DNA of 60,774 nt from an uncultured Cytophagaceae bacterium (GTDB lineage Bacteria; Bacteroidota; Bacteroidia; Cytophagales; Spirosomataceae). The position numbers and the translations under genes were made by a program. The stretch is from positions 1 to 60,774 of the forward strand of contig CAIZMB010000083.1 of assembly GCA_903933935.1 (NCBI GenBank), read 5' to 3'. Of the stretch, positions 15,958-56,473 are shown piece by piece. The stretch's first letter is position 1, and every line of letters starts with the position of its first letter. Under the pieces are notes generated by a model. That model was not told the DNA's origin and searched no databases. It saw only the letters and a list, made by a program, of their open reading frames with translations.

Positions 15958-16060
15958 TATGTAAAGTTCGAATTCTTTTGATTTTATTTGTTAAGCCTAT
16001 TTTGAAATGCCTGAACCGAAAAATTTATGCGCTGTTTTTGATACTCTTTTAAGAAAAATT

Positions 16061-19000: not shown

Positions 19001-19192
19001 TATTTGGTCAACAAAGATGCCCGGGGAACTACTCTTGCTTTTATGGGAGGTAGTCGAATATTTATTGAAACGGCCAACATCCAAAGCCAAGGTTTTCTAG
19101 GAGGTCGCTCGTTCATGACAAAAGGCTTGATCGATAATTATACAGATAAACAAGTGGCCGATTTGCTATCCTATATACGGACCTTAAAATAA
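16061..19192 (+). CDS. PVC-type propeller/HEAT/cytochrome c protein
   Basis: 1043-aa exported protein, probably a periplasmic sugar or alcohol dehydrogenase linked to respiration. In order: signal peptide (KHFLVFISILLVTS to AFAQ), a six-bladed propeller of the sorbosone-dehydrogenase type (about 40-430; GLNNIWGFQLRGNGQWYGS, GPDGSLYIADWYNKII), HEAT-like alpha repeats (about 440-850), and a C-terminal cytochrome c domain with CLLCH (Cys922, Cys925, His926). In-frame codons continue upstream to 16007, but only the ATG at 16061 starts directly on a signal peptide, so I use it. It follows DUF3500 and DUF1080 on the same strand and is closed by a hairpin. The cofactor of the propeller is not evident. 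Confidence 0.88.
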   Translation: MKHFLVFISILLVTSLNPKAFAQSKKTQSVRTKVYTPEQELAGFKVPEGFVIELVASEKDGLINPIDLTFDDAGRLWTQTATMYPLDPIADIQWNDLLKLMDDPEAQKNHPNFKRILDLYQGKTKGVDKILVFSDLYGKNPVKTNIWADGLTIPMSILPYKHGAYVVQGSELFFMNDADRDGKADQRTPLLTGFGFTDTHTMAHVLIRGPGDWIHFSQGALNKSGVSSLKSDVKLKIDYSKIARFSLDAKKLELVSSGLNNIWGFQLRGNGQWYGSEANDLGYSVAPMEPGTGFPGIGNERLSPYQPFMPTLHEFRVGGTGISGTAFADDASGSFPEEYKNVAFLANPITSSINAVRIVRNPDGTVTAKHLPDILTSEDDWFRPVNMEFGPDGSLYIADWYNKIISHNELPTTHPDRDKSHGRIWRIRHVSQKPRVILDFNQVKTEELVNYLKSPSLWEKRAAWHQISDRPISETKDLAMSLKALASDESQDEVTRIHALWSLEGIKHYDATLLSFLLKSPLQDLRREAVRSLASFSLKPGEVASSVKELMEDKNPTVRSQVLRTLSEISGADQSTIDILVRASKPEIPGNAMGGAYERKFERFLARRALEQYAGELQKYLNVPLATDIAAANILWAIQALPVKQKETAFLKFWPTSHITTLDESAFIGIAEMLSNKEIFEAVKPVFQNPVHAAAYTQFALQNQARVQSPKLTDMLLVPISTLLKSNSQPNIDLALDAIGRFKMDKLREAIISLVNDQTPDNTLKLTLKALEINPKASQEVFRQIVQNKKLSFEVRAAALNSLSKASPTEGEMALLKWIPELKATEKAEMVSILAGSNQSATVLMNVFGQKGLDLSAFNLSAAERIVNANRSDPRGQAIMEGVKKREEEKKKAFDGELKRYMVIANKNGGNPNEGKKLFQTCLLCHQVGNKGQNIAPALDGSASREYEALLTAILNPDAAVESSYAIYRVKKKDGQSLEGYLVNKDARGTTLAFMGGSRIFIETANIQSQGFLGGRSFMTKGLIDNYTDKQVADLLSYIRTLK

Positions 19193-30315: not shown

Positions 30316-32787
30316 TTACTGATAGGTTAACCAAGTAGTCGCATCACAATTTTTGTTAGCCGAAAAACGAATCCAACGGGCTTGAAAATCAGGCGAAAAG
30401 GTATATTCAAACGTTTCGTTTGGCTTAACATCTACTTCTTTGTATAGCATCCAAGGGCCATGACCGATCGGTTCAATCTCGATTTTAAAGGTGACGGTCT
30501 GATTAGATTTATGCGAAATTTTCAAGCTTTTTTTATCATAAAAACCAATTAAATAAGGATCCGATTTTGCGTTTGCAACCACTGAACTGTTTTTCCAAGG
30601 TCCGCCTTGGCCTTTTGGCTTACCCAATTTCCAAAGATCATCAATTGTACCCGCCCATACTTTTGCTTTGCCATCCGAGGAAGTAATGATATGTTCATTG
30701 GCTCCCGAATTTTTATCAAGCCCCGTCATCACTAATAAGCCGCGATAAGAAGCATAATCATGAATCGATAATGTATGGGAAGCTACGGGTCTAATTTTGG
30801 CATAGCCATCGGCATTTTCAGCTGGGAGTTCATAAAAGGTTCCATGCACATTCATTAAATCCCGCTCGGTCGCCACTTCCCGATCAATGCGCATCGATCC
30901 CGATTGAATCTTATTTGTGAAGTTCTCGTTCCCCTTGGGCAAACGCCACCTTCTTCCCGCATCGTCAATGACTAAAACTGAGGCGTCGTCAACTATAATC
31001 GCATCTTTGGAAATTTCAAATTTTGAACGAATAAAATCAGCCATTTTCGGATCCTCTCTTCTGGTCAAATTCATGGCACTATCTAATTCATAATACCCCA
31101 CTTCATTAAATTTCCCTTTGGAAAAATCACTCGCTAAAATAGCTAATTTGCGACGCTTATCTCCAAGCGCATATAATAGACCGCCTGATAACTGATCTCC
31201 ACCAATGGCTGATAATCCCTTAAAAATTTTGTCTGATTCGTTGACGTACCGAGTATCATCTGTGTAATTAAAATTAACCGTGGCCGTCGTATTCTTATTT
31301 GACTTCACCTTGATCCACTCGCCTATTTCAGCAGGTAAGAAAGAAATATTTTTCGATTGGCCTGCACTAAGCAACACAGTGCGAAGTTTTTTCCAAGTAC
31401 CATTTCCTTGTCGATCCACCTCAAAAGTAAAGGTAACATCCTCTTTTCCTGCATTCTGAATCCAAGCCATCCGCTTTTTCCAACCTGCAAACAGGAAGGC
31501 CTCCGAACTGACATTCGCTTCAATTTTCTCTGAAAGCCAAACCGCTCCCTGTGCTGTATTGGGGCCCAATTGGTCAGGCTTTTCCACCGACGTAAACCAC
31601 AAATTCGAATTAGATTGTCCTGGTCCTTCGATGTTTCCTTTTGCTTTTCGCTTGTTCAAGAATTCTTTTTGGGCTGAATCATCGCAACCAAAAACCAATC
31701 CATCTTGCCAGCGGGTGAAATCACCGATCACTTTTAAGTAGGCCGATCGAGGACGAATTCCCGCCGTATTGAATGAGGTAAAGGATGCTGGAAAATGCCA
31801 AAACATACCGTGCATCGTCATCAAATAATCGGGCTTTTCAGGAGTTCCCACATCTCGAATGCGTGGCCATTCTGTATTCCAACCGTGAGCTCCGTCGTAA
31901 CTATGACTGGCCTTAGGCATTCTGAAAAAGGACCATTTGCCTGAATCTCGTACACCTAAAATGACTGATTTATGATCCCAACCTGTCACCCAAATCGCAT
32001 CGGTCGCGGGGTTCTTATTGCCATAAATTCCACCGGGGCCCGTTACTTCCACAAATTGATTTCTTCGAATCACCTTCCAGTCTTTCCCATTCCATTCAGC
32101 TAAAACTCCGGATTCGATATCAAACTGCTTTAATGCTTTATCGCCGGATTCACCATTATTGGAATACACCATCACGCCTTGGCCCGAATAAAGTCCTTTT
32201 CCATGCGCACCGGGCAACAAAGAACCGCTCGTGTTATTAGAAACATCATTCGTCTTCTTTACTTTTAAATTACCATCCTCGTAGAGCGATTTGGTCGTCA
32301 AATTGTTGACATCCAGGTCATAAAAACCCTCCTCCATAGTTGCCAGAAGTAGCTTATTGGTTGGGTTATCGAGTGATCTCGCTAATCCTGTAAAGCGGCC
32401 AGGTGCCTGCGTATAAGGAATCGTGCGGACATTGCCCTGAGAATTAATGGCATAGGGCCCAATAAACAATTGATTGCTTTCCGGGTGAATCATCCGATTC
32501 GCTGGAGTTCCACCGATACTTTCGGGTCTTATAATTCTATTTAAAGAAGGACTTATTTCATATAGCTTATCGGACGAACCAAAAGGTAAATGTGGGCCAT
32601 ATGTCACCACCCAAAGACGATTTGCCCAGGGAACCACTGCCCCAGTACCACATTCGCCTTCATTGTTGTAATACGCCAAATGTGGGTAAATACCACTGAA
32701 TTGAGGGTAAACAGATTTAATTTGTGCTTGTAAAGTAATGCACGTGAAGAGTAAAATAACTGTTACTGCCGTGTTAAAATATTTCAT
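30316..32787 (-). CDS. Unrecognised 823-aa secreted beta-rich protein
   Basis: I do not recognise a family. It has a signal peptide (MKYFNTAVTVILLFTCITLQAQ region), then a long beta-rich body with repeated WVTGWDHKSV- and GDFTRWQDGLVFG-type strands, consistent with a propeller over residues 25-450. Two similar modules follow: VTFTFEVDRQGNGTWKKLRT (about 475) and VTFKIEIEPIGHGPWMLYKE near the C-terminus. Both precede an IRFSANKNCDATTWLTY-like strand, suggesting an internal duplication of a beta-sandwich. It is the last gene of the PQQ-dehydrogenase run, 32 bases after the GATase-like gene. Function is unknown; export and context suggest work in the periplasm or at the surface. Confidence 0.7.
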   Translation of the reverse strand: MKYFNTAVTVILLFTCITLQAQIKSVYPQFSGIYPHLAYYNNEGECGTGAVVPWANRLWVVTYGPHLPFGSSDKLYEISPSLNRIIRPESIGGTPANRMIHPESNQLFIGPYAINSQGNVRTIPYTQAPGRFTGLARSLDNPTNKLLLATMEEGFYDLDVNNLTTKSLYEDGNLKVKKTNDVSNNTSGSLLPGAHGKGLYSGQGVMVYSNNGESGDKALKQFDIESGVLAEWNGKDWKVIRRNQFVEVTGPGGIYGNKNPATDAIWVTGWDHKSVILGVRDSGKWSFFRMPKASHSYDGAHGWNTEWPRIRDVGTPEKPDYLMTMHGMFWHFPASFTSFNTAGIRPRSAYLKVIGDFTRWQDGLVFGCDDSAQKEFLNKRKAKGNIEGPGQSNSNLWFTSVEKPDQLGPNTAQGAVWLSEKIEANVSSEAFLFAGWKKRMAWIQNAGKEDVTFTFEVDRQGNGTWKKLRTVLLSAGQSKNISFLPAEIGEWIKVKSNKNTTATVNFNYTDDTRYVNESDKIFKGLSAIGGDQLSGGLLYALGDKRRKLAILASDFSKGKFNEVGYYELDSAMNLTRREDPKMADFIRSKFEISKDAIIVDDASVLVIDDAGRRWRLPKGNENFTNKIQSGSMRIDREVATERDLMNVHGTFYELPAENADGYAKIRPVASHTLSIHDYASYRGLLVMTGLDKNSGANEHIITSSDGKAKVWAGTIDDLWKLGKPKGQGGPWKNSSVVANAKSDPYLIGFYDKKSLKISHKSNQTVTFKIEIEPIGHGPWMLYKEVDVKPNETFEYTFSPDFQARWIRFSANKNCDATTWLTYQ

Positions 32788-32819
32788 TCCCGAAGATACT
32801 ATTTTTCATGGATTGGGCA

Positions 32820-33719
32820 TTATTTCGAAAGCCAATGTAAGCTATTCAGAACGAATTGCTTCCAATCATAGGGCTTGACCTGCATACCTGCATACACTTT
32901 TTTCTCCTTGCCCATGTACATCGATGTAAATCCATTGCAATCTGAGAGGGCAATTAATTTGCCTTGGCCGACAGGCCCAGCCAAACCTTGTGAATTTCCT
33001 TGGTCTAAAGGACCTAAACCTACCCATTTGCCAACTTTGGCCGTTGGGGATAATGGAAGAAGATTCACATAACCATCCCCTTTTATCGAACTGCCACCAA
33101 AAGTAGCCAATTTTTTAATTTTCTCAGTGGAATTTGTTCCATCCAAAATAGGATGTTTTGCCATCAAAGAGCCATTTTCTTCGGTATGTTGGACTACATA
33201 TTTTAGCCCATACGAGGTATCATAATGCAAGGAATCCGACACCATTCCCACACTCGAAGATATCCCAAACTTATTCAACAAAGGGGTCATCGCTGCGTCA
33301 ATCGGCGGATGTTCACTTAACATAATTAATGATCCGCCCGTACTCACCCAGGCATGCAACTGATCTATTTCATCTTGTGTGAATGTAATCAAATTGCCTA
33401 CTTCCCTTTTTGTCCCAAAAACAAATGGCAAAGCGGGTGTAATGAGAATGATATCAAATTTGGACAAATAGTTTTTTGTAAAGGGCAATGAATCCATCAC
33501 GGGTTTATATCCGTCTGACGTCGATAGGTCAATAAAGGGTTGGATTAATCCCCATTTGGCAATAAAATTGTTGTGCCCGGCATCGATTAAAATTCTCGGG
33601 CCTTTATTTTTTTTATACGCTGGGCGTAAAACTTTTGAATCAAAAGTCGTGTCATTAAACATTTGCGCTTGAAGGCAAAGGCTTGACAATAGGAAACATA
33701 AAAGGAATAGTTTTTTCAT
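32820..33719 (-). CDS. Exported GATase1-like (DUF4350-type) protein
   Basis: 299 aa from the ATG at 33719, which starts on a signal peptide (KKLFLLCFLLSSLCLQAQ). In-frame codons continue to 33749 but would put ten residues before it. The body looks like a class I glutamine-amidotransferase fold: PRILIDAGHNNFIAKWG, LSKFDIILITPA, FTQDEIDQLHAWVSTGGSLI, MLSEHPPIDAAMTPLLN, and GKLIALSDCNGFTSMYMG. There is no Cys in the usual nucleophile-elbow context I can identify. It is fourth in the minus-strand run, 69 bases after the metallo-hydrolase and 32 before the 823-aa protein. Reaction unknown. A ThuA-like assignment is a less likely alternative. Confidence 0.7.
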   Translation of the reverse strand: MKKLFLLCFLLSSLCLQAQMFNDTTFDSKVLRPAYKKNKGPRILIDAGHNNFIAKWGLIQPFIDLSTSDGYKPVMDSLPFTKNYLSKFDIILITPALPFVFGTKREVGNLITFTQDEIDQLHAWVSTGGSLIMLSEHPPIDAAMTPLLNKFGISSSVGMVSDSLHYDTSYGLKYVVQHTEENGSLMAKHPILDGTNSTEKIKKLATFGGSSIKGDGYVNLLPLSPTAKVGKWVGLGPLDQGNSQGLAGPVGQGKLIALSDCNGFTSMYMGKEKKVYAGMQVKPYDWKQFVLNSLHWLSK

Positions 33720-33788
33720 ACTGATCAAGTCTTCATTTATTTGAAACATCTATCTACGATTTTTTCTAGCATTTCAACGAATAAAAAT

Positions 33789-34709
33789 CTAGCGGCCTCC
33801 TTGAATCATTTTATAGACCGTTGAGGTCATGAATAATCCATTCCACCATTTGATATCCTTCAGGGGGTTATTTTGTTCGATTTGCCCAACCGTTAAGTTC
33901 TTAGCTATGCCATCTTTAATTCGGTCGACAATCAATTGCAGATTATTTCGATAGGTAATCAGATCCTTCCGACTTGAAATAGGTCCATGTCCAGGAATGA
34001 TTTTACTCGAATCATTTGTTCTGTCAATCAAATCATTTACGGCTTTGATGATCCCTAGAATATTCCCTCCATTATTGTTATCAATAAAAGGAAATCCGTA
34101 GCGAACGAAAACGTCTCCAGTATGGAACACATTTTCATTTTGGAATTGAATAAATGAATCTGTATCGGTGTGAGCATTTAATACATGAAATATTTTAATC
34201 GCCTCCTTTTCTTCATGCAACGTTAGAGAGTCACTAAAAGTAATGCTGGGAAGGGCGTTGAAGGGATAGGCTTTTTGATACACATCGGAAGGTGGCGCAA
34301 CATGTTGTTCCGTCAAAAGTCTTTTCCTCAGGTTATCATGGGCAATAATCTTAATCCCTTGTTTACCAAAAGCCATATTACCATCCGTGTGATCGAAATG
34401 GAAATGGGTATTTAGAACATATAAGACAGGTTTGTTCGAAATAGACTTTAACATTTTATCTATTGTAGGCTTAACATCTTCCCATTGATCATCCACCAAG
34501 ATAAATCCGTCTTTGCCTTCATAAATCAATATATTTCCAGCTCCTCCTTTTGCAATGATCGCATAGGTATGATTTGAAATTTTGATTAAGGAATCCTGGA
34601 CCGTATTAATGATATTGAATTTGCTCTTTTCGTAATTGTCATTTTTTTGCGCCGACAAGTAGGTGAAACTCGATAAAAAGACGAAAAGAGATAAGTGGAT
34701 TTTTTTCAT
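33789..34709 (-). CDS. Exported metallo-beta-lactamase-fold hydrolase
   Basis: 306 aa with a signal peptide (1-20, TYLSAQ). The two-zinc site is complete: NTHFHFDHTDGN (His102, His104, Asp106, His107), NAHTDTDSF (His180), HTGDVF (Asp199) and PGHGPIS (His241). The overall spacing resembles cyclase-like and quinoprotein-associated zinc hydrolases rather than a true lactamase. It starts nine bases after the NTF2-like gene, so co-transcription is nearly certain. Beside a PQQ dehydrogenase it may process a product such as a lactone or ester, or serve redox relay as proposed for other PQQ-linked MBL proteins. That is an inference. Confidence 0.88.
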   Translation of the reverse strand: MKKIHLSLFVFLSSFTYLSAQKNDNYEKSKFNIINTVQDSLIKISNHTYAIIAKGGAGNILIYEGKDGFILVDDQWEDVKPTIDKMLKSISNKPVLYVLNTHFHFDHTDGNMAFGKQGIKIIAHDNLRKRLLTEQHVAPPSDVYQKAYPFNALPSITFSDSLTLHEEKEAIKIFHVLNAHTDTDSFIQFQNENVFHTGDVFVRYGFPFIDNNNGGNILGIIKAVNDLIDRTNDSSKIIPGHGPISSRKDLITYRNNLQLIVDRIKDGIAKNLTVGQIEQNNPLKDIKWWNGLFMTSTVYKMIQGGR

Positions 34710-34718
34710 TTTAGGTGT

Positions 34719-35138
34719 TTATTGTTTACCTGCAAAGGTTTGACGTAAAATTTTACCCCCTTGAATAATAAAACTATCAGTCGCATAGGTATATTCTACT
34801 ACAGGTGTCTTCGCTGACCAAACAATATAAAACAGATCATCTTTAACAGCTGTTTTGATTACCTTAAATGTGGATCCATTGGTAGGAAAAATCTTTATTA
34901 ATGCTTCAAAAGCCTTTCTGATTTCTTTCAATCCACTAAAGGTCCCATCTGGAGTAATCACAATGGACTCTTCTGTATAGTCAGAGAGTATGGCATCAAT
35001 ATCATTTTCACCCAAAGCTTTACTATGATGCTGAAAGGTGGCAAGGGTAGTGGCCTCATCAATTTTTTTTGTGTTATTCTGTGCAAAAACAGCCATTGAA
35101 CTGCATGTAAATAAGGCAATAAATACTAAATTTTTCAT
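34719..35138 (-). CDS. Exported NTF2-like (SnoaL/DUF4440-type) protein
   Basis: 139 aa from the ATG at 35138, which opens on a signal peptide (KNLVFIALFTCSSMAVFAQ). A longer frame to 35243 would overlap the upstream dehydrogenase and is rejected. The domain is a cone-like NTF2 fold: HHSKALGENDIDAILSDYTE, SIVITPDGTFSGLKEIRKAF, and terminal strands DLFYIVWSAK and DSFIIQGGKILRQ. Such proteins isomerise, hydrolyse or only bind small molecules. It lies 34 bases after the PQQ dehydrogenase and nine before the metallo-hydrolase, in the same transcript. The ligand is unknown. Confidence 0.85.
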   Translation of the reverse strand: MKNLVFIALFTCSSMAVFAQNNTKKIDEATTLATFQHHSKALGENDIDAILSDYTEESIVITPDGTFSGLKEIRKAFEALIKIFPTNGSTFKVIKTAVKDDLFYIVWSAKTPVVEYTYATDSFIIQGGKILRQTFAGKQ

Positions 35139-35172
35139 ATGTTTTAATTTTAAATTACGTGTATAAAGATAA

Positions 35173-37266
35173 TTATTTGCTCTCCCTATTTTTCTTCGCA
35201 CTAGAAAGAATATAGCCTTTGATGTTCGAAATATCTTCGTCACTTAAACGACCTTTGAATTTAGGCATCCCTTTGGGTAGGAAAATTCCATCTCGAACAA
35301 TTTGATGAAAAGCTCCCATGATATCTGGGTGAGAATAGGTTAGATTAGGGATGTTACCTCCAGGATTATTCGCGTTAAGCGTATGACAAGGACCACAATT
35401 TTTACCAAATAAGCTGGCTCCTTTGGCTATTTGTGCATCAGTCGCCTCAACGGCCAAAGTCAAATATTCCTTTTTAGCTTCCTTTTCATACACTGGCATC
35501 GCTACATTTTTTCCAATAGCAAATGTGTAAACCGTACCTGGGTTAATCTGTTCTGTATTTCTGTTAGAAATTCCCGTTACACCGCCCCAACCAACAGCAA
35601 TGGTAACATATTGAACTCCATCCACTAAATAGGTAATCGGAGGCGCGACAATCCCAGTACCCAAATTTTTAGACCATAGGACCTGACCCGTTTTAGCATC
35701 CAATGCATTGAAATCTCCTTCCGCATTTCCTTGGAAAACTAGATCTGAAGTAGTTAAGACGCCTGAATTCCAGGTAGTTTTCTCAATCTTGCTCCAAACT
35801 TCTTTGTTTTGCACAGGATCCCAAGCGATTAATTTACCGAAAGATTTAGGCCATTTAGAATCCTTGTTCGTTGGATTAGCTGGATTACTAGTAATCCCTA
35901 CACTCCAATGATCTTTATCATAAACGAAATCCTGCTGATTTCCATACATAAATGATTGTTCTCTAGCGGGAATATAAACCAATTTGGTTTTTGGATTAAA
36001 GGCCATAGGTTGCCAATTATGTCCCCCAAAAGGGCCCGGATATATTTGCTCATTACTCGTCAAATAACGTGCATTAGGCGTCTCGACTGGCCTTCCAGTT
36101 TTCATGTCCACTTTCGAGGCCCAGTTGACATACACATAAGGCTCCGCCGACAACAACTCGCCTGTATTACGATCCAACACATAGAAAAAACCATTTTTAG
36201 GGGCTTGCATTAATACCTGACGTTTTTTCCCTTTTATTTCCAACTCGGTCAGCATGATTTGTTGGACCGCCGTAAAATCCCAAGACTCTCCCGGTGTCGT
36301 TTGATAATGCCATTTCAATTTTCCAGTTTCTGCGTGAATAGCCAAAATAGATGAAAGGTAAAGATTATCTCCGCCGCCTGGACTTCTAATTTCTCGATTC
36401 CAAGGGGACCCATTTCCCGTACCTACATAAATCAATTTTAGTTTAGGATCGTAGGCAAAAGCGTCCCAAGCCGTTCCGCCTCCGCCGTATTTCCACCATT
36501 CCCCTTTCCATGTTTTGGCTGCAACTTCCATTTCAGGATGTTCAAAACCTTTCGCCGGATTTCCAGGAACCGTATAAAATCGCCAAATCTTCTTTCCTGT
36601 CATCGCATCATAAGCAGTTACATAGCCTCTAACCCCATATTCAGCTCCACTATTTCCGATCAACACTTTTCCATCCATCACCCTAGGCGCACCAGTTATG
36701 GTATAAGAACGATCATGCGATACAGATAAAACTTCCCACTTCTTTTTTCCCGTCGATGCATTAATGGAAACTAAGCGTCCATCCAAAGTCCCCACAAAAA
36801 TATTTCCTTTATACATGGCTACTCCGCGATTTACGACATCGCAACAAGCTTTTTCGCCAAATTCCTTAGGCACCTGAGGATCATAAGTCCATAACAATTT
36901 CCCTTTTCTAGTATCAATGGCATACACCACACTCCATGGTCCACTCAAAAACATGATTCCATCCACAACCAACGGCGTAGCTTCTATCCCGCGCTTCGTA
37001 CCTAAGTTCAAACTCCACGCAAGCCCCAATTGGCCCACGTTTTCCTTGGTAATTTGGCCCAGAGGACTGTAACGTTCCTCGCCGTAATTTCGCCCATAGG
37101 TAAGCCAATCACCTGAATTATCTTCTATTGTAGAAATTTGTTTATCCTGAACGGCACCTACCACTTTGGCAATGTGCAAGGGACTTCCTGGTTTAGATTT
37201 TTCAACAAAAGCGATGCTTAATAGAACTAGGATAATGGCAGAAAAATAGAGTACAGCTTTTTTCAT
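35173..37266 (-). CDS. PQQ-dependent quinohaemoprotein alcohol dehydrogenase
   Basis: 697-aa periplasmic type II-like alcohol dehydrogenase that oxidises alcohols to aldehydes and passes electrons to its own cytochrome c. A signal anchor (about 5-21) is followed by an eight-bladed PQQ propeller with WLTYGRNYGEERYSPLGQI, the vicinal disulfide Cys141-Cys142 (KACCDVVNRG) and the catalytic Asp330 in ESWDFTAV. The residue two after the Asp is Thr332 rather than the Asp of lanthanide enzymes, so a calcium-type site is likely. A C-terminal cytochrome c has CGPCH (Cys624, Cys627, His628) and axial Met667 (KGMPKF). It is the first gene of a five-gene minus-strand run. No PQQ synthesis genes are in the window. 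Confidence 0.93.
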   Translation of the reverse strand: MKKAVLYFSAIILVLLSIAFVEKSKPGSPLHIAKVVGAVQDKQISTIEDNSGDWLTYGRNYGEERYSPLGQITKENVGQLGLAWSLNLGTKRGIEATPLVVDGIMFLSGPWSVVYAIDTRKGKLLWTYDPQVPKEFGEKACCDVVNRGVAMYKGNIFVGTLDGRLVSINASTGKKKWEVLSVSHDRSYTITGAPRVMDGKVLIGNSGAEYGVRGYVTAYDAMTGKKIWRFYTVPGNPAKGFEHPEMEVAAKTWKGEWWKYGGGGTAWDAFAYDPKLKLIYVGTGNGSPWNREIRSPGGGDNLYLSSILAIHAETGKLKWHYQTTPGESWDFTAVQQIMLTELEIKGKKRQVLMQAPKNGFFYVLDRNTGELLSAEPYVYVNWASKVDMKTGRPVETPNARYLTSNEQIYPGPFGGHNWQPMAFNPKTKLVYIPAREQSFMYGNQQDFVYDKDHWSVGITSNPANPTNKDSKWPKSFGKLIAWDPVQNKEVWSKIEKTTWNSGVLTTSDLVFQGNAEGDFNALDAKTGQVLWSKNLGTGIVAPPITYLVDGVQYVTIAVGWGGVTGISNRNTEQINPGTVYTFAIGKNVAMPVYEKEAKKEYLTLAVEATDAQIAKGASLFGKNCGPCHTLNANNPGGNIPNLTYSHPDIMGAFHQIVRDGIFLPKGMPKFKGRLSDEDISNIKGYILSSAKKNRESK

Positions 37267-37600
37267 TTCGTTAATTTTTATAGAGTTTTATATTTTTTAG
37301 AAAATTCAAGGAGTCAATAGTTAAACCTAATTTGGTTAGTTTTTAAAGACAAATTTCATTTTACCTTCACAAACTATTTTAAATATCGGTATCTAATTTA
37401 TACTAAAATAATATTTATCCTTGGAAAATAAAAAAATCATCCATTAAAAATTGATTAAATCACTTACTTAAATTCCATTTTAGAGCGCACGTAATACAAA
37501 TCCAATGAACAGCATTGATCAAATAAATGATGCTAGCATTTGAATGGTTTCACAGCTAAATGGGTGGTTTAAAAAGGAAAAACTCTTTGAAAATGAATTT
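37267..37600. promoter_or_regulatory. Upstream region of the PQQ-dehydrogenase operon
   Basis: A 334-bp AT-rich gap that should hold the promoter of the dehydrogenase run and the 3' end of the sulfatase transcript. A short palindrome ATGCTAGCAT lies at 37530. No gene, clear terminator or consensus promoter is seen. Confidence 0.4.
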
Positions 37601-39358
37601 TTAATCCACTTTTTCAATCTCAACACTGAATGGCAATATCATTTTACCCTTAATCAAATAGTAAGGAATCAATTCGCCCTTTATTTCTGGAAGAGAAATA
37701 TTTTTCATCTCAATCACATCCGTAATCTGATCATTCTTCATTTGATTGATAATCGTATTAGTTTCCAAATACATGTCACCATTGGCAGCCATCGGTTTAA
37801 TGAACTTAAACCTAAAATCATATCGTCCTTTTAGAATATTAACATTCCATTTTCCAAATATGGCTTCTTGATCCCATAATCCACGGGAACCATCCGCATC
37901 ATTTCGATTCAAGGTCAAAGGGTTTTCCTTTTTTGATCCAACAATAATTTTGGGTGGAATTATCAGATTTTTTGACCGAATTAAATCCTGGTAAATAAGA
38001 TCTAATTCCGTTTTCAGCTTCCCTGCGATTTCTTTATTTTCCTTAACAATATTGTAAAGTTCTTCGGGGTCATTTTTCAAATTGTACAATTCGAAATCTT
38101 CGATGGAAGCGTTATAATTGGTTTGCCCAACTAACTTATACCCCGACTTCTGAATGGCCATGCTGTTGTAAAGTTCAGGATACTTTCTCGTCCAGTAACT
38201 AAACATGGCTCGATCTGACCAATCAACCTTTTTGCCCTTGATCAGAGGCACAAGGCTTTTACCGTCAATTTTACGATCCTTGGGCAAATCTGCATGACAC
38301 AATTCCGAGAGCGTAGGAAGTACGTCAAAATGGGCCGACATCGTTTCAATCACTTTACTTTCCTTCGTCAAGGCTGGATATTTCATAAAGAAGGGAACTC
38401 GGGTCCCTCCATGATAAACCGACCCTTTTTTATCTCGCATGCCCGCCGTAAAACGTAATTGCTGCGGGCCGTTGTCCGTCATAAATATCACAATGGTATT
38501 TTCTTCAATTCCCAAATCCTTGATTTTCAGAAGCAATTTGCCAATGTTATCGTCTATGTTGCTGACCATGCCATATACTTTTCGAGCATCTTCTTTGTCT
38601 TGTTCGCTCATTTTAAGGTGCATTGGATTTTTTCTTTCAAACTCGATAGACGGGTCTGTATTTTTGTACATCTGATAATAAGAATCAGGCACTTGTAAAG
38701 GCGTATGTGGGGCATTAAATGAGAGGTAACAGAAGAATGGATTGCTTTTGTTTTTTTCAATAAATCGGATGGCATTCGCTGCGAAAATATCCGAACAATA
38801 CCCCTTAAATGACTCCTTTTGGCCATTTTTCCAAAGAACCGGATTGAAATAACTACTATCTTTTTGAAAATAAGTCGTTACATCACCAACTTGGCCCATC
38901 CCTCCCGAAAGGTGCATTAAGGTCTCATCAAATCCCTGGTCCATAGGCCGACTAGGAAAATTATCCCCCAAATGCCATTTACCAAACAACCCAGTAGTAT
39001 ATCCTGCCTGCTTCAAAATTTCCGCAATCGTAATTTCATTCGGAGCCATAATGGCTCCCCCATTATAGGTATCTCGTATGCCGGTTCGCAAAGAGTAGCG
39101 ACCCGTCATTAAACTTGACCGAGTAGGCGCACAAACGGGTGAAACATGGAAATCGTTAAATCGTAAACTCTGTTTGGCAAAGCGGTCAATGATCGGCGTC
39201 TTGATGATTGAATTCCCGTTAATTCCCAAGTCGCCATATCCTTGGTCATCGGTAATAATTAAAATAACGTTGGGGTGTATATTTTTTTGGGCTATGCTCG
39301 CAAAGGAAACTCCGCAGGCTAGTATAATCAAAAGGAATTTGCAAGTATTCATCAGCAT
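37601..39358 (-). CDS. Exported sulfatase (formylglycine type)
   Basis: 585-aa sulfatase that removes sulfate esters from glycans or small molecules. The N-terminus is hydrophobic with either a signal-peptidase I site (SFASIAQ) or a lipobox-like ILAC (Cys15). The metal site has ITDDQGYGDLG (Asp37, Asp38), and the formylglycine motif is PVCAPTRSSLMTGR with Cys76 as the modified residue (C-x-P-x-R). Later landmarks are GKWHLG, MTDNGPQ, and HGGTRVPFF. A second Met two codons in could be the start. It follows a GH43/117-like gene on the same strand by 213 bases, suggesting a shared sulfated glycan. No formylglycine-generating enzyme is in the window. Confidence 0.93.
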   Translation of the reverse strand: MLMNTCKFLLIILACGVSFASIAQKNIHPNVILIITDDQGYGDLGINGNSIIKTPIIDRFAKQSLRFNDFHVSPVCAPTRSSLMTGRYSLRTGIRDTYNGGAIMAPNEITIAEILKQAGYTTGLFGKWHLGDNFPSRPMDQGFDETLMHLSGGMGQVGDVTTYFQKDSSYFNPVLWKNGQKESFKGYCSDIFAANAIRFIEKNKSNPFFCYLSFNAPHTPLQVPDSYYQMYKNTDPSIEFERKNPMHLKMSEQDKEDARKVYGMVSNIDDNIGKLLLKIKDLGIEENTIVIFMTDNGPQQLRFTAGMRDKKGSVYHGGTRVPFFMKYPALTKESKVIETMSAHFDVLPTLSELCHADLPKDRKIDGKSLVPLIKGKKVDWSDRAMFSYWTRKYPELYNSMAIQKSGYKLVGQTNYNASIEDFELYNLKNDPEELYNIVKENKEIAGKLKTELDLIYQDLIRSKNLIIPPKIIVGSKKENPLTLNRNDADGSRGLWDQEAIFGKWNVNILKGRYDFRFKFIKPMAANGDMYLETNTIINQMKNDQITDVIEMKNISLPEIKGELIPYYLIKGKMILPFSVEIEKVD

Positions 39359-39571: not shown

Positions 39572-40567
39572 CTATTTCAAAAAGGGTCCCTTTTTATTCC
39601 AGCCAACTTCCACATTTGAAATCCACCAAGCTTTCCCTTGATCCTTATTTCCCTGATAAAACAAATAACTTTTATTACCTAAATCGAGTATATCTGGATG
39701 GCCTGACTCACTGTAATTCCACTCTCCAGATTTGCCATTTTCCAAAAATGGTTTTTTGAAAAGCCGTTGCCACGAATAACCATCGTGACTAGTCGCTACC
39801 CCTATTTGCTGTGGGGAATTATCATAAGATCCTGCATAAAACATATACAAAATACCATTTCGTTTGATAATAGAAGCCGCCTCAATGCAATCACCTTCCC
39901 ACTTTTCTTCAGGTTTTAGGATTGGGGCTAATTTGGATTGATGCGTCCATTCGCCTCGGTTGAAATTTGTATTTGCGGGGGCTGTCGCTACTCCGAGCAT
40001 TTGAATTTTAAAATCGGGATCCCTTGTAGCATAATACATGTAATATTTGCCTTTGAACAGAAACACTTCCGCATCGATGGCCCTGCCACAATTCCATGCC
40101 CCGTCTGGACGAAAGATCGGATTGGTGGTGTTTCTAATAAAATTATTTATTCCATCCTCGGATATGGCATGGCAAATGGCATCTTTTTTTCCATTTCCAT
40201 AAGTCTGATAAAAAATGTGGACTTTGCCTTTGATCACTAAGGCACAAGGAGCACTGATTCCATTTTTTTCGTAAGGCTCTTGGATTGTTAAAAAACCGAC
40301 ATTCTTCCAATGAATCAAATCAAAACTTTCTGTGATTTCAATTTCCCTGGATTGACTCCCCCTCACGGGCAAAACGGAAGAGTACATTAAATACCTTCCT
40401 TTAAATCGGATTACATATGGGTTTTTTGAAAATGGCTTACCCGTTCTACTGGAATCTGCATACATCATTTTCGAGGCCTTCCCGTGCAATTGCCCCACTG
40501 AAATTTCGTTGTCTAATAATAAAATGGCAATGCTTAAAACAAGGAAGGGTTTGAAATTAAACTTCAT
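39572..40567 (-). CDS. GH43/GH117-like five-bladed propeller glycosidase
   Basis: 331 aa with a signal-like N-terminus (about 8-25). The blades carry FSKNPYVIRFKGRYLMYSSV, EKNGISAPCALVIKGKVHIF, GRAIDAEVFLFKGKYYMYYA, EGDCIEAASIIKRNGILYMF and ESGHPDILDLGNKSYLFYQG, a regular pattern of five propeller blades in the clan that holds GH43, GH62, GH117 and related enzymes. Acidic residues in DAEVF, CIEAAS and GHPD fit the usual acid triad, but I cannot assign them or fix the family. It sits upstream of the sulfatase, so a desulfation/hydrolysis pair is likely. Confidence 0.78.
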   Translation of the reverse strand: MKFNFKPFLVLSIAILLLDNEISVGQLHGKASKMMYADSSRTGKPFSKNPYVIRFKGRYLMYSSVLPVRGSQSREIEITESFDLIHWKNVGFLTIQEPYEKNGISAPCALVIKGKVHIFYQTYGNGKKDAICHAISEDGINNFIRNTTNPIFRPDGAWNCGRAIDAEVFLFKGKYYMYYATRDPDFKIQMLGVATAPANTNFNRGEWTHQSKLAPILKPEEKWEGDCIEAASIIKRNGILYMFYAGSYDNSPQQIGVATSHDGYSWQRLFKKPFLENGKSGEWNYSESGHPDILDLGNKSYLFYQGNKDQGKAWWISNVEVGWNKKGPFLK

Positions 40568-46107: not shown

Positions 46108-47592
46108 ATGATTAAAAATCTATTAATAGTCATTCCTTTGACTATTTTCATATGCTTTCATGCGCAAGCAGAAGATTACAAGGCTTCCATGTTTGGAATA
46201 AAATCCAATGGGACGACAATGAATACCACCTCGATTCAAAAAGCCATCGATTTTATTCATGAAAAAGGCGGGGGCCGACTCGTATTTTATGTAGGAAGGT
46301 ATTTAACAGGAACCATCCAACTAAAATCCAATGTAACCATTCATTTAGAGGAAGGGGCTACGATTGTCGGATCTACCAACATATATGATTATAATATTAA
46401 TGGCCCTCATTTCTCATCGCTAATTTCCGCCTACAAAGCAGAAAATATCGGATTAACTGGCAAAGGGGTGATCGACGGCCAAGGCCGAGATTTAGCATAC
46501 ACTCTATTAGATCAAGTTCAAAAGGGAATACTTAAAGATGAACTAGCCAACGACCGACCTGCGCTTCGTAGGCCAAAAGGCATTTACTTGCGCGAATGTA
46601 AAAACGTGGAAGTTTCAGGCATCATGGTTAAAAATGCGGCAGAATGGGTCGTTGTGTTTGATCAATGTGAGAATTTGAAAATTGACAAAATCACGGTCGA
46701 CAGCAAGGCTTTTTGGAACAACGATGGAATCGATATTGTCGATTGTAAAAATGTGGTCCTAAGCAATTCGTTTATTGACGCAAGTGATGATGCCATCTGT
46801 TTTAAATCACATGATCCCACAAAACTTTGTGAAAATGTAGAAGTTCGAAATAATGTGGCTAGATCTAGCGCGAATGGCATAAAATTCGGAACGGTAACCT
46901 CAGGTGGATATAAGAATTTCAAGATTGTCAACAATAAAGTATATGATACATTTCGTTCTGCGATTACCATCGCCACTCCCGATGGTGGGGTGATTGACAA
47001 TATTTTTGTCGACAGTTTATATGCCTATAATACAGGAAACTCAATTTACTTGAGAATAGGTGCTCGTTGGAACAAAGGCCGAACAGGTTCCATGAATAAC
47101 ATTACGATTCAAAATATGTATTGCGAAATCCCTAATTCAAAACCAGATGCGGGAAGAGAATACGAGGGGCCCGTTGAAGATCTTCCACGTAACATTTCAC
47201 CTGCTAGCATCGTAGGTTTGCCGGGACAATACATTTCAAACGTGACCCTTCGCAATATCCAAATAGTTGTGCCAGGAAACAGCAACCCAACCTACGCCTA
47301 TCGAGGCATTAAACCCGCTGACCTAGATAGTATTCCAGAAATGCCAGCTGCTTATCCAGAATATTCTCAATTCAAGGAATTGCCAGCATGGGGATTTTAT
47401 GTCCGACATGTTAAAAATCTAACCATTGAAAATGTAACATTAACTGCGCAAGGAAAGGAATACCGACCGGCCATTGTCTTAGATGATGTGCAAGGAGCCA
47501 CTTTTTCTAAAATGAAGTACATCGAACCTGAAAGTAATAAGAAGAAACAAGTACATACGTATAAGTCTTCTGAAGTGTTGCTCAAGAAATAA
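46108..47592 (+). CDS. GH28-family polygalacturonase-like enzyme (paralogue 1)
   Basis: 494-aa secreted parallel beta-helix glycosidase. Signal peptide 1-21 (FHAQA). FGIKSNGTTMNTTSIQKAID is the normal GH28 opening. Catalytic acids are Asp206 in NNDGIDI and Asp227-Asp228 in ASDDAICFKS. The GHG motif of classical polygalacturonases is replaced by SSANGIKFGT, and RIK by YLRIGARW, as in a Bacteroidota subgroup acting on rhamnogalacturonan or other pectin branches. The C-terminal half has EGPVEDLPRNISPASIVGL and KELPAWGFYVRHVKNL, shared with the next gene. It is first in a three-gene run, 12 bases before paralogue 2. Confidence 0.9.
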   Translation: MIKNLLIVIPLTIFICFHAQAEDYKASMFGIKSNGTTMNTTSIQKAIDFIHEKGGGRLVFYVGRYLTGTIQLKSNVTIHLEEGATIVGSTNIYDYNINGPHFSSLISAYKAENIGLTGKGVIDGQGRDLAYTLLDQVQKGILKDELANDRPALRRPKGIYLRECKNVEVSGIMVKNAAEWVVVFDQCENLKIDKITVDSKAFWNNDGIDIVDCKNVVLSNSFIDASDDAICFKSHDPTKLCENVEVRNNVARSSANGIKFGTVTSGGYKNFKIVNNKVYDTFRSAITIATPDGGVIDNIFVDSLYAYNTGNSIYLRIGARWNKGRTGSMNNITIQNMYCEIPNSKPDAGREYEGPVEDLPRNISPASIVGLPGQYISNVTLRNIQIVVPGNSNPTYAYRGIKPADLDSIPEMPAAYPEYSQFKELPAWGFYVRHVKNLTIENVTLTAQGKEYRPAIVLDDVQGATFSKMKYIEPESNKKKQVHTYKSSEVLLKK

Positions 47593-47604
47593 CCGACCCA
47601 ACCT

Positions 47605-49092
47605 ATGATCTATAAAAATAAAATTACGCTATTCTTTTTCTTGCTTTTGGGTTTTCAGCTCTCAGCCAAAGATTATATTGCCACGGAATTTGGCGTTAAA
47701 AATGACGGCCTCACCCTCAATACATGTTCCATTCAAAAAGCCATTGATTTTATCCATGAGCATGGAGGTGGAAGGCTTGTGTTTGAATCTGGAAATTATG
47801 TGACTGGAAGTATTTATTTGAAATCGAATGTAACGCTCCAACTAGATTACGGCGCTACGATTTTGGGATCTACTAATCCATTTGATTACGTTAAGGATAA
47901 AAAGATCGGTTGGATGTCCATGATTTTTGCAGTCAATCAGGAAAATATAGGCATTACAGGGAAAGGGATCATCAACGGTCGTGGATTTACCACGGCAAAT
48001 AACATGGTTAATTACATCCACCGCGGTGTTTATGTCGATCCGTTGAAATATGATCGGCCCAACGAAACCAATCGGCCACAAAATATTTATTTCCGCGAAT
48101 GTACCAACATCAAAATCATAGACATCACGCTGAAAGATCCCGCCAGTTGGAACCAAACTTATGACCAATGTAAAAATCTGTACGTGGATCATATCACCGT
48201 AGACAGTAAATCCTATTGGAATAATGACGGAATCGATGTGGTGGACTGCGATGGGGTGGTGATCAAAAATTCCTATTTTGACGCGGCGGATGATGTGCTT
48301 TGTTTCAAATCACATTCAGCCCAACATATGTGTCAAAATGTGGTGGTGGATAATTGTGTCGGTCGGTCTAGTGCTAATGGACTGAAATTTGGCACCGTGT
48401 CGCGTGGAGGATTTAAAAATTTCAAGGTAACCAACTTGACCATTTATGATACATTCCGATCGGCCATAACCTTCGCAGCGGTCGATGGAGGTGAAATCGA
48501 AAATATTGTAATTGACGGTGTGCGTTCCATCAACACAGGGAATGTGATTTACTTGAGGATTGGCGATCGTTGGAGCAGTAGAAAGAAACCCTACATGAAA
48601 AACATAACTATTTCAAATGTATATGCAGAAGTACCCTTTGGTAAACCCGATGCAGGATATAATTTTGAAGGACCCATTGAAGACCTGCCACGCAATATCT
48701 CCCCAGCCAGTATAGTAGGTTTGGTTGAAAATAAAATCCAAAATGTAACGCTCAAAAACATTCAAATTGTATATCCTGGAAGTGGAAATCCTCTATATGC
48801 GAAACGAGGTTTAACACCTGCTGAACTCGATGGGATTCCTGAAATGCGAGAGGCTTATCCCGAATTTTCACAGTTCAAGGAACTTCCAGCATGGGGATTT
48901 TATGTACGTCACGCGGAAGGTATTACGTTTGAAAATGTCACATTCACCGCTCTTAAAAAGGATTATAGACCTAGCGTTGTCCTAGACGATGTCAAGAATG
49001 CCACTTTTTCAGGGCTGGTGGTGAATGAACCAGAAAGCGTTGGAAAACAACAAGTATTCCCGTATAAGACCAGTAACTTGATTATTAAATAA
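47605..49092 (+). CDS. GH28-family polygalacturonase-like enzyme (paralogue 2)
   Basis: 495 aa, highly similar along its whole length to the gene just upstream, so a tandem duplicate. Signal peptide 1-20 (QLSAK). The acids are kept: WNNDGIDVVDC and DAADDVLCFKSH. The same SSANGLKFGTV and YLRIGDRW replace the classical GHG and RIK motifs. Differences cluster in substrate-loop regions such as KDKKIGWMSMIFA and RWSSRKKPYMK, so the two copies may have different linkage specificities. It begins 12 bases after paralogue 1 and is followed after 55 bases by a shortened third copy, all likely on one transcript. Confidence 0.9.
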   Translation: MIYKNKITLFFFLLLGFQLSAKDYIATEFGVKNDGLTLNTCSIQKAIDFIHEHGGGRLVFESGNYVTGSIYLKSNVTLQLDYGATILGSTNPFDYVKDKKIGWMSMIFAVNQENIGITGKGIINGRGFTTANNMVNYIHRGVYVDPLKYDRPNETNRPQNIYFRECTNIKIIDITLKDPASWNQTYDQCKNLYVDHITVDSKSYWNNDGIDVVDCDGVVIKNSYFDAADDVLCFKSHSAQHMCQNVVVDNCVGRSSANGLKFGTVSRGGFKNFKVTNLTIYDTFRSAITFAAVDGGEIENIVIDGVRSINTGNVIYLRIGDRWSSRKKPYMKNITISNVYAEVPFGKPDAGYNFEGPIEDLPRNISPASIVGLVENKIQNVTLKNIQIVYPGSGNPLYAKRGLTPAELDGIPEMREAYPEFSQFKELPAWGFYVRHAEGITFENVTFTALKKDYRPSVVLDDVKNATFSGLVVNEPESVGKQQVFPYKTSNLIIK

Positions 49093-54541: not shown

Positions 54542-56473
54542 CTAAGCCCTAGCCGTTCCTGGTTTTTCCATCAATTGGTGTAATTCTTTTATATGGTTGG
54601 TATAAACGCCTCTTGGGTTCGTCGAATATTTAATGCAAATAGAAGCCGCCTTACCTACGATTTCACCCATCATTCCACAAGTTTTCATCACGCGCACAGG
54701 ACCGAGACCCGACTTAGAAACGCTAATGCAGCGACCTGCCATGAACAGATTTTTAATATTACGGCTGTATAATGTACGGTAAGGTGCCCAATATACTTCT
54801 CCATATTGGTATTCAACGCCACGTGTATAATCGGCTACAAATTCGTTGTTTTCGAAGCCGCTTTGAAATTCCTTTTTAGGGGAATGTAAGTCCACATGCC
54901 AAGAGCAAGGAAATGCAGGATCTTCAAATTTCCTTTGTTTTTTAAAGTCTTCCGCATCTAAAATAATATCCCCCATCAACCTGCGAGATTCTCTTTTTCC
55001 GGCGATAAAAGCAGACCAACCCAAACGGTGTTTAGGATACATTTTATCCACATTTTTAATCACATCCCAAGCGCCATACATCGCCCTAAAATTATGATCT
55101 CGAATCAATTCTATTTGGTTTACCTGATCCTTATCAAACCCACTTTCCCAATACCACATGTTGGCAAACGACTGCAATCCCTCTTTCCCAAAAGTCTTTA
55201 CTCCTTTTCTTCCTGGGAAAGGTTTATCTGATAAATCCAGGGCCCAAGGGCAACGTGGAAATGGTTGATTATAATCTCCAATATCACATTTAAGTGCTAA
55301 TGCGCTCTTGTCTTTACATTCACAGGCCAGCACCTCTTCTTTATTGGTCGTATCCAGCACATTAAATAAATTCGTACTACCCATTAAATTCTCAACCTTG
55401 TATTCATAATCGGCCCCCGCCTTAAACCCAATGGAAGCATCGCCGGTACAGTCGGCAAACAAAGTACCAGTCAAGCGAGATTGACGTGAAGTAAGCGTGC
55501 TTTGAATCAGAAGAGACTTAATCACATCGCCATCCGTTTCTACTTTAATCACTCGGTGATTAAGCAAAAGTGTAATGTTAGGTTCTGATTTAACAACTTG
55601 AATTTTACGCGCATCATCGTAATATTGAGCTCCTACGCCATTAAACACTTGCCCATTTCCCTTCTTGATAGGGGGCAGAATTTCATTAACGATATCCCCT
55701 ATATGTGGGAACAAATCTTTGTTGGTATGCCCCTCCGGCCAAACCCTTACTTCCGAACTTCCATTTCCGCCAAGTACTGGTCGGTCTTGAATTAGGGCCA
55801 CTTTAACCCCGTTTCGAGCCGCCGCGATAGCAGCACAAGTTCCAGCTAATCCTCCGCCAGAAACAATTAAATCAAACTGACCTCCATCTGCTGGATTTTC
55901 GGGCAAGCCTAATAATTGGCGACGGAATTTGGTCAACGCTGCTACGTCGTTGCTCGGCTTAAATGCTGGATCTTTGCAGAATAATATAGCTTCACACCGA
56001 CCTTCAAAACCGGTTAAATCGTGTAAGGCTAATTTTGCTTGGGTGCCTACTTTCACCATTCCGCCGTCATGCCAGTGCCAAGTAGCACTTTTAGTCCCGA
56101 ACGTTTCTTTGAGCGCTTTGCCATTGATTTTCAGCTGGAACTTTCCGGGCGCACCAGGTGCATTCCATGGGGCAACCCAATCTCTGGTTCGAACCCATAC
56201 TCGATAAGTCCCAGCGGTAGGAAATTTAATTTCTGTGGTGGCATCTTTAACAGGTATGCCTAATCCATGAGCTAATAAATAAGGAGAGCCCATTTGCTCC
56301 ATGGATTGTTGGTCTAATTCCCAACCCCCATGATTCGCAAATTGTTCCGCCTCCACAAAAACGAATTCTTGTGCAGCGGCTTTAGATTTAAATTGAGCTA
56401 ATGAGGAAAATTGGCTGGCCAATAAACAAAGGCTTGTGTTTCCAACAAAGCCCATAAATTCTCTCCTTTTCAT
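54542..56473 (-). CDS. CBM-linked FAD-dependent oxidoreductase
   Basis: 643 aa. The N-terminus KRREFMGFVGNTSLCLLAS has an RRxF Tat-like motif. Residues about 35-180 look like a carbohydrate-binding beta-sandwich (FVEAEQFANHGGWELDQQ, GTYRVWVRTRDWVAPW). The FAD domain follows: FDLIVSGGGLAGTCAAIAAA, VLGGNGSSEVRVWPEG, GTLFADCTGDASIGFKAGAD, and LFMAGRCISVSKSGLGPVRV. Export with a CBM implies oxidation of a glycan or sugar outside the cytoplasm. It heads the operon with GH78 and GH16. The exact reaction is unknown; I see no copper or haem site. Confidence 0.88.
   Translation of the reverse strand: MKRREFMGFVGNTSLCLLASQFSSLAQFKSKAAAQEFVFVEAEQFANHGGWELDQQSMEQMGSPYLLAHGLGIPVKDATTEIKFPTAGTYRVWVRTRDWVAPWNAPGAPGKFQLKINGKALKETFGTKSATWHWHDGGMVKVGTQAKLALHDLTGFEGRCEAILFCKDPAFKPSNDVAALTKFRRQLLGLPENPADGGQFDLIVSGGGLAGTCAAIAAARNGVKVALIQDRPVLGGNGSSEVRVWPEGHTNKDLFPHIGDIVNEILPPIKKGNGQVFNGVGAQYYDDARKIQVVKSEPNITLLLNHRVIKVETDGDVIKSLLIQSTLTSRQSRLTGTLFADCTGDASIGFKAGADYEYKVENLMGSTNLFNVLDTTNKEEVLACECKDKSALALKCDIGDYNQPFPRCPWALDLSDKPFPGRKGVKTFGKEGLQSFANMWYWESGFDKDQVNQIELIRDHNFRAMYGAWDVIKNVDKMYPKHRLGWSAFIAGKRESRRLMGDIILDAEDFKKQRKFEDPAFPCSWHVDLHSPKKEFQSGFENNEFVADYTRGVEYQYGEVYWAPYRTLYSRNIKNLFMAGRCISVSKSGLGPVRVMKTCGMMGEIVGKAASICIKYSTNPRGVYTNHIKELHQLMEKPGTARA

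Follow-up and report, generated by a model that had tools for sequence, protein, structure and literature searches.

The five genes analysed here form a patchwork of exported enzymes, put together locally in the genome of a freshwater bacterium, and not one dedicated pathway. Most probably the assembly is recent and lineage-specific, two modules of different history having been joined in a variable stretch. The variable stretch would belong to a carbohydrate-degradation region of Aquirufa that is flanked by a sulfatase/GH43 pair. The first module, common in the genus, would consist of a periplasmic PQQ-dependent alcohol dehydrogenase (ADH), an NTF2-like protein and, as an exchangeable part, an exported hydrolase of the ester/lactone type, here a zinc enzyme of the metallo-beta-lactamase fold (MBL). 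ADH would oxidise an alcohol, the electrons leaving via its own c-type haem, and the hydrolase most likely either releases this alcohol from an ester or cleaves an ester or lactone that the oxidation has produced. The second module would be P823, a secreted and partly duplicated protein whose gene elsewhere follows SusC-SusD in polysaccharide utilisation loci (PULs). A GIFT-like protein (GAT), which may bind sugar, would link ADH to P823 in some relatives.

Cluster layout and gene order in relatives

All five reverse-strand open reading frames were verified in the window, the whole stretch of 60,774 nt that was analysed (Table 1). The window lies on contig C83 of a genome of 2.9 Mb and 98.9% completeness, whose best matches (Aquirufa and Cytophagaceae MAGs) suggested its assignment to the genus Aquirufa, Spirosomataceae. 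An earlier note on this DNA had described five consecutive reading frames with gaps of 34, 9, 69 and 32 bases, all of them exported. The spacing was exactly as described, and a signal-peptide-like start was seen on each of the five proteins when inspected by eye. The 174-aa GTG frame of the NTF2-like gene and the 309-aa frame of GAT in the ORF list were over-extensions, and the versions of 139 and 299 aa were kept. Against close relatives, dN/dS was 0.04-0.12 for ADH, NTF2, GAT and P823, which are therefore under purifying selection; MBL lacks a close orthologue for such a comparison. No terminator-like site was found inside the cluster on the coding strand, so read-through is plausible, and with this and the spacing of 9-69 bases the five genes could be co-regulated at present, whatever their history. 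A possible Bacteroidota-type promoter lies upstream of ADH, and junction sequences revealed the same arrangement before ADH in G010. This promoter pattern occurred 9 times in the window compared with 5.8 expected, a count near chance, and the matches of a sigma-70 promoter scan were no better than those in shuffled sequence.

Table 1. Features of the window (positions in the 60,774-nt stretch).
Feature	Position	Strand	Remarks
P823	30316..32787	-	823 aa; exported, predicted beta-propeller + beta-sandwich protein with internal duplication
GAT	32820..33719	-	299 aa; exported GIFT/GATase1-like protein
MBL	33789..34709	-	306 aa; exported metallo-beta-lactamase-fold hydrolase, interchangeable "slot" gene
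44-nt recombination edge	34666..34709	-	blastn break at 34666; junction sequences
NTF2/SnoaL-like exported protein	34719..35138	-	139 aa
ADH	35173..37266	-	697 aa; type II quinohaemoprotein (PQQ + c-haem) alcohol dehydrogenase
Candidate Bacteroidota-type promoter	37322..37353	-	TTTG-N20-TANNTTTA; pattern match, upstream of ADH
Sulfatase	37601..39358	-	PF00884; conserved upstream flank
GH43-like glycosidase	39572..40567	-	PF04616; conserved flank, same place in G010, G017, G027, G029
FAD-dependent oxidoreductase	54542..56473	-	643 aa; PF12831; frequent P823 companion in other genomes

P823 was searched in 99 genomes and MBL, GAT and ADH in 149 each, and 32 regions were read for neighbourhood. 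The complete order ADH-NTF2-MBL-GAT-P823 was present in the source genome only, among 38 Aquirufa genomes. The order was thus not conserved in relatives, which carried subsets or substitutes; this is the outcome that the earlier note had named as refuting its reading. Between the same flanks (GH43 plus the sulfatase at one end and either a SOUL-type gene or an acyltransferase at the other), P823 stood alone behind the sulfatase in G017; G010 and G009 had sulfatase-ADH-GAT, G029 had sulfatase-ADH-GAT-P823, and G027 had sulfatase-ADH-NTF2-GDSL lipase-GAT-P823, with the contig split inside ADH. The sulfatase adjoined the variable segment in G010, G009, G014, G017, G027 and G029. Several of the relatives are draft genomes, and single absences may be assembly gaps. 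When the window was compared with G010, G009 and G029, DNA homology stopped no more than 2 bases from the ADH stop codon and resumed at the GAT start codon. Among the papers listed on PQQ-ADHs, no title or abstract described the five-gene set. Elsewhere in the window, positions 16007-19192 encode a 1061-aa protein that combines DUF7133 and HEAT repeats with a cytochrome c domain.

The alcohol dehydrogenase and its exchangeable hydrolase

ADH scored 663.7 bits against TIGR03075, above the curated cut-off of 480.05 for the PQQ methanol/ethanol-type propeller. The closest solved structure was 1kv9 (E 5.5e-214), nearly full length and collinear. Vicinal cysteines were found at residues 141-142, WDFT at 329-332, a CGPCH haem site at 624 and the Met of a GMP motif at 666-668, and the fused C-terminal cytochrome c matched Cytochrome_CBB3 at 611-686. 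The family score, the 1kv9 match and the haem motif bore out the call of a quinohaemoprotein alcohol dehydrogenase in the earlier note, and as judged from its sequence ADH would be a PQQ-dependent alcohol oxidiser. It shares the PQQ propeller, the C-terminal c-type cytochrome, the vicinal cysteines and the WDFT and haem motifs with the type II quinohaemoprotein ADHs 1kv9, 1kb0 and 1yiq. Unlike these, it occurs in a Bacteroidota genome in which PQQ synthesis was not detected, and among other gene neighbours. Lanthanide-type PQQ dehydrogenases carry Asp two residues past the catalytic Asp; ADH, like 1kv9, has WDFT, which puts Thr in the diagnostic position, and a lanthanide-type identity was rejected. 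In G036, G026 and G019 (L197, L198 and L199, respectively) a PQQ-ADH of 62% identity adjoined relatives of the GH28 genes at 46108-49092 of the window.

PqqC had no match in the source genome, and the same search was also silent in 14 control genomes. Across 198 genomes of the phylum the matches were weak and none was above the cut-off. PQQ synthesis genes are absent from Bacteroidota carrying the importer PqqU, where scavenging was inferred (PMC12124388). Since the 14 control genomes also gave no match, we take the absence of PqqC from the phylum search and from that paper. Because no PQQ synthesis gene was found, PQQ for ADH is probably scavenged or imported.

The second protein matched PF12680 (SnoaL_2) with 30.6 bits, above the cut-off of 27, in agreement with its earlier description as NTF2-like. 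Its gene directly followed ADH in G027 (98%) and in G030, G002 and G007 (75-76%). In the outgroup loci of the ADH tree (G030, G007, G002 and G022) an NTF2-like gene lay immediately behind ADH, indicating that the ADH-NTF2 pair is probably ancestral and that NTF2 was lost from G009, G010 and G029.

Across Aquirufa, exported hydrolases recurred beside a quinohaemoprotein ADH of type II, behind which an NTF2-like gene usually lay. The folds of these hydrolases were unrelated (MBL, GDSL, two alpha/beta families and a serine beta-lactamase fold), and by family they would share a broad class of chemistry. Loci with an ADH of 88-90% identity adjoined Abhydrolase_3, Abhydrolase_1 or serine beta-lactamase-fold hydrolases and/or an NTF2-like gene. 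Of the 33 genes no more than two positions away from ADH, 13 encoded hydrolases, against about 5 of 61 farther off (Fisher p 0.0006); this enrichment is indicative only, with about 11 related, non-independent loci and a control count of families among the matches listed. It had been proposed that an alcohol is oxidised and its product processed by the zinc hydrolase. The recurrence in Aquirufa of ADH with neighbouring exported hydrolases partly supported this proposal; however, other folds occupied the place of MBL, showing that the zinc enzyme is not essential. It is reasonable that an alcohol is oxidised and that the same compound is the target of a hydrolase, whose step may precede or follow the oxidation. 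In polyvinyl-alcohol (PVA) degradation a periplasmic PQQ-type PVA dehydrogenase is paired with an oxidised-PVA hydrolase. The likeness, set by description, is in concept only (a PQQ dehydrogenase with a hydrolase of the oxidised product); unlike in the PVA genes, the hydrolase here is MBL and varies between relatives.

The fold assigned earlier to MBL was confirmed by a match of 51 bits to PF00753 (Lactamase_B) and by its metal ligands. An HxHxDH motif with a further His, Asp and His completed the seven ligands of the glyoxalase/lactonase type, and all of these (H102, H104, D106, H107, H180, D199 and H241) were invariant in 10 sequences. Subclass B1/B2 metallo-beta-lactamases have Cys at the second zinc site; MBL has Asp199 there, within an HTGD motif, and it scored 63.8 against a cut-off of 200 and 48.7 against 240, so membership of these subclasses was rejected.

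A GDSL lipase sat in the MBL slot in G027. DNA homology between the window and G027 covered NTF2 and the first 44 nt of MBL, broke off there and resumed 94 nt before the MBL stop codon. The 44-nt stretch, comprising the MBL start codon and signal peptide, was common to the unrelated lipase gene. Behind the lipase lay a frameshifted remnant of the MBL 3' end, 94 nt long and identical at 83 of them (L188, G027:C150, about 1383-1692). The persistence of this 3' remnant downstream of the lipase demonstrated that MBL was older in the slot and that the lipase took over its body in G027. MBL is an exchangeable part, because the lipase fills its slot, reuses its signal peptide and trails its remnant. 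The signal peptide of the G002 Abhydrolase_1 resembled that of the neighbouring G030 Abhydrolase_3 (L190 10451-12282 and L195 7690-8520), which suggests that here, too, the signal peptide was kept while the sequence behind it was swapped or deleted.

The P823 family and the GIFT-like protein

P823 had no Pfam or NCBIfam family match and only chance matches to PDB sequences, and it was listed as "hypothetical protein" in one annotated record. The earlier description of an unrecognised beta-rich protein was right as to the missing family entry and the beta folds, but the family is widespread, with relatives encoded in 468 genome stretches. The best 80 of these 468 were 64-95% identical over almost the full length and were spread across Bacteroidota. 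The predicted model (pLDDT 89.7) comprised a propeller (residues 30-403), a beta-sandwich and then a second partial copy. When residues 30-403 were compared with propellers in VIA-align, Z was 18-20 and WDR33, YncE and virginiamycin B lyase were tied; a specific function was dropped, the three-way tie pointing to the general propeller group only. Foldseek with the whole protein returned scattered beta-propeller matches; their TM-scores were low, and none pointed to a specific relative. An internal repeat aligned residues 262-508 with 593-822 (score 196), and the sandwich pair scored 114 by itself, where shuffled sequences reached 50 at most. There are also shorter paralogues (about 483 aa, 32-43%), which aligned with the N-terminal as well as the C-terminal part and look like a single unit of P823. 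The family diverged slowly and retained invariant His, Glu, Asp and Trp residues, so that an enzymatic role is conceivable.

SusC and SusD genes lay upstream of P823 in 57 of the 68 loci that had at least 5 kb of upstream sequence; 35 also had FecR and 19 also an ECF sigma factor. P823 elsewhere thus ends the order ECF sigma-FecR-SusC-SusD, as in Bacteroidota PULs under ECF sigma/FecR control. By contrast, the window P823 stood without SusCD: no SusCD adjoined it in the window, and a cognate SusD of the P823 type was absent from the source genome. The best SusD match in the genome was only 34%, indicating that the cognate SusCD is missing here. P823 is a PUL-associated family that is displaced here from its usual SusCD partners, and it probably binds or processes a glycan. 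In other genomes (71 scanned) its neighbours included FAD oxidoreductases (14), GH29 (7), GH2 (5), sulfatases (5), GH95 (2) and GH78 (2). The FAD oxidoreductase cluster c5 was found in 26 of 80 P823 loci, and the FAD oxidoreductase of the window was 98% identical to the copy adjoining P823 in L033. In G033 (Aquirufa ecclesiirivi; L034, L200) P823 and the FAD oxidoreductase adjoined another PQQ-ADH of 61%, with one internal stop. A stop-interrupted fragment of the P823 C-terminus (60% identity) was located at G000:C30:24633-24761 (L002), about 4.5 kb from a GAT paralogue, and similar fragments were present in G009:C7 and G017:C36.

GAT had no match above cut-off in the family scan, with weak GATase1, DUF4350 and GIFT-like matches only; the Pfam matches to IFT52_GIFT and ABC_transp_aux were both under the cut-off. 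Its AlphaFold2 model (pLDDT 83.9) was compared in VIA-align with the GIFT domain of IFT52 (Z 21.1; 2.6-3.0 A over 210-214 residues), with OST48 (Z 18-20.6) and with ThuA-like/GATase1 chains (Z about 12-15.5). No conserved Cys was found in 18 aligned sequences, indicating that amidotransferase activity is unlikely. The earlier label "GATase1-like" thus concerns a protein without the conserved nucleophilic Cys of class 1 glutamine amidotransferases, whose model is structurally closest to the GIFT domains of IFT52 and OST48, ahead of GATase1 chains. In its predicted fold GAT may be related to the GIFT domains (GldG, IFT52, OST48/Wbp1), its model aligning to IFT52 and OST48 at Z 18-21; unlike these, it is a stand-alone exported protein. 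Sugar binding was proposed for GIFT domains (PMC7226087), and by analogy GAT may bind sugar. A paralogue (52%) was encoded on contig C30 of the source genome. The GAT-P823 gap of 32 bases was preserved in G027 and G029, so GAT and P823 may work as a pair.

Alternative readings and significance

ADH and its exchangeable hydrolase may possibly be accessory to polysaccharide breakdown, glycan esters being cleaved and the released small alcohols oxidised. We hold this to be rather unlikely, and it is as much a refinement of the two-module assembly as a rival to it. Both modules would then share one plant or algal material as their target. Genes for GH28, GH78, GH16, a sulfatase and GH43 are also present in the window. 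An ADH of a second type (61-62%) lies by GH28 in G036, G026 and G019 and by P823 with an FAD oxidoreductase in G033, and the predicted folds of P823 and GAT suggest glycan contact. However, type II quinohaemoprotein ADHs are known for acting on small alcohols, and ADH in other Aquirufa loci was not consistently near glycosidases. Rather unlikely, too, is a joint proposal in which P823 would be an undescribed glycan-active enzyme family, more than a binding protein, with a duplicated propeller-sandwich unit and a spread over much of the Bacteroidota, and in which Aquirufa PQQ-ADH loci would evolve by exchanging the bodies of secreted hydrolases while the signal peptide stays.

The earlier note had read the five genes as one dedicated periplasmic pathway in which MBL processes the ADH product; NTF2, GAT and P823 would then have specific helper roles. 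Close spacing on one strand, export of all five proteins, the adjacency of ADH and GAT in G009, G010 and G029 and the constant GAT-P823 gap agree with this reading. Nevertheless, it is improbable: a single Aquirufa genome held the set, MBL, NTF2, GAT and P823 were each absent or replaced in relatives that kept ADH, and P823 is usually a SusCD partner, historically found in SusCD-type loci. A smaller unit of ADH, NTF2 and an exchangeable hydrolase was supported instead.

The pairing of ADH with an MBL-fold hydrolase is not new as such, since SoxH-like zinc hydrolases accompany PQQ-ADHs with adjacent cysteines in Proteobacteria, and a PQQ-ADH likewise lies near an exported MBL-fold hydrolase in the ped cluster/quinoprotein relay system (PMC12997753). 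It is very improbable that MBL is such a SoxH-like relay zinc metallohydrolase serving ADH, as with PP_2677/PP_2678 of the Pseudomonas ped cluster: TIGR04559 was its best NCBIfam match (E 3.5e-23) and ADH has the vicinal cysteines, but MBL scored 82.4 against a cut-off of 280 (and 42.2 against 300 for TIGR04558), no SoxYZ-like carrier or rhodanese partner was found in the cluster or the immediate neighbours scanned, and a GDSL lipase (G027) or alpha/beta or serine hydrolases took its place elsewhere while ADH remained conserved.

The five-gene pathway is not a conserved system, and effort on it can be saved. P823 represents an exported family of about 823 aa that is Bacteroidota-wide, linked to SusCD and in neither Pfam nor NCBIfam. 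The hydrolase swap, in which the signal peptide stayed in place and a remnant records the direction, is a clear natural example of secreted-enzyme exchange.
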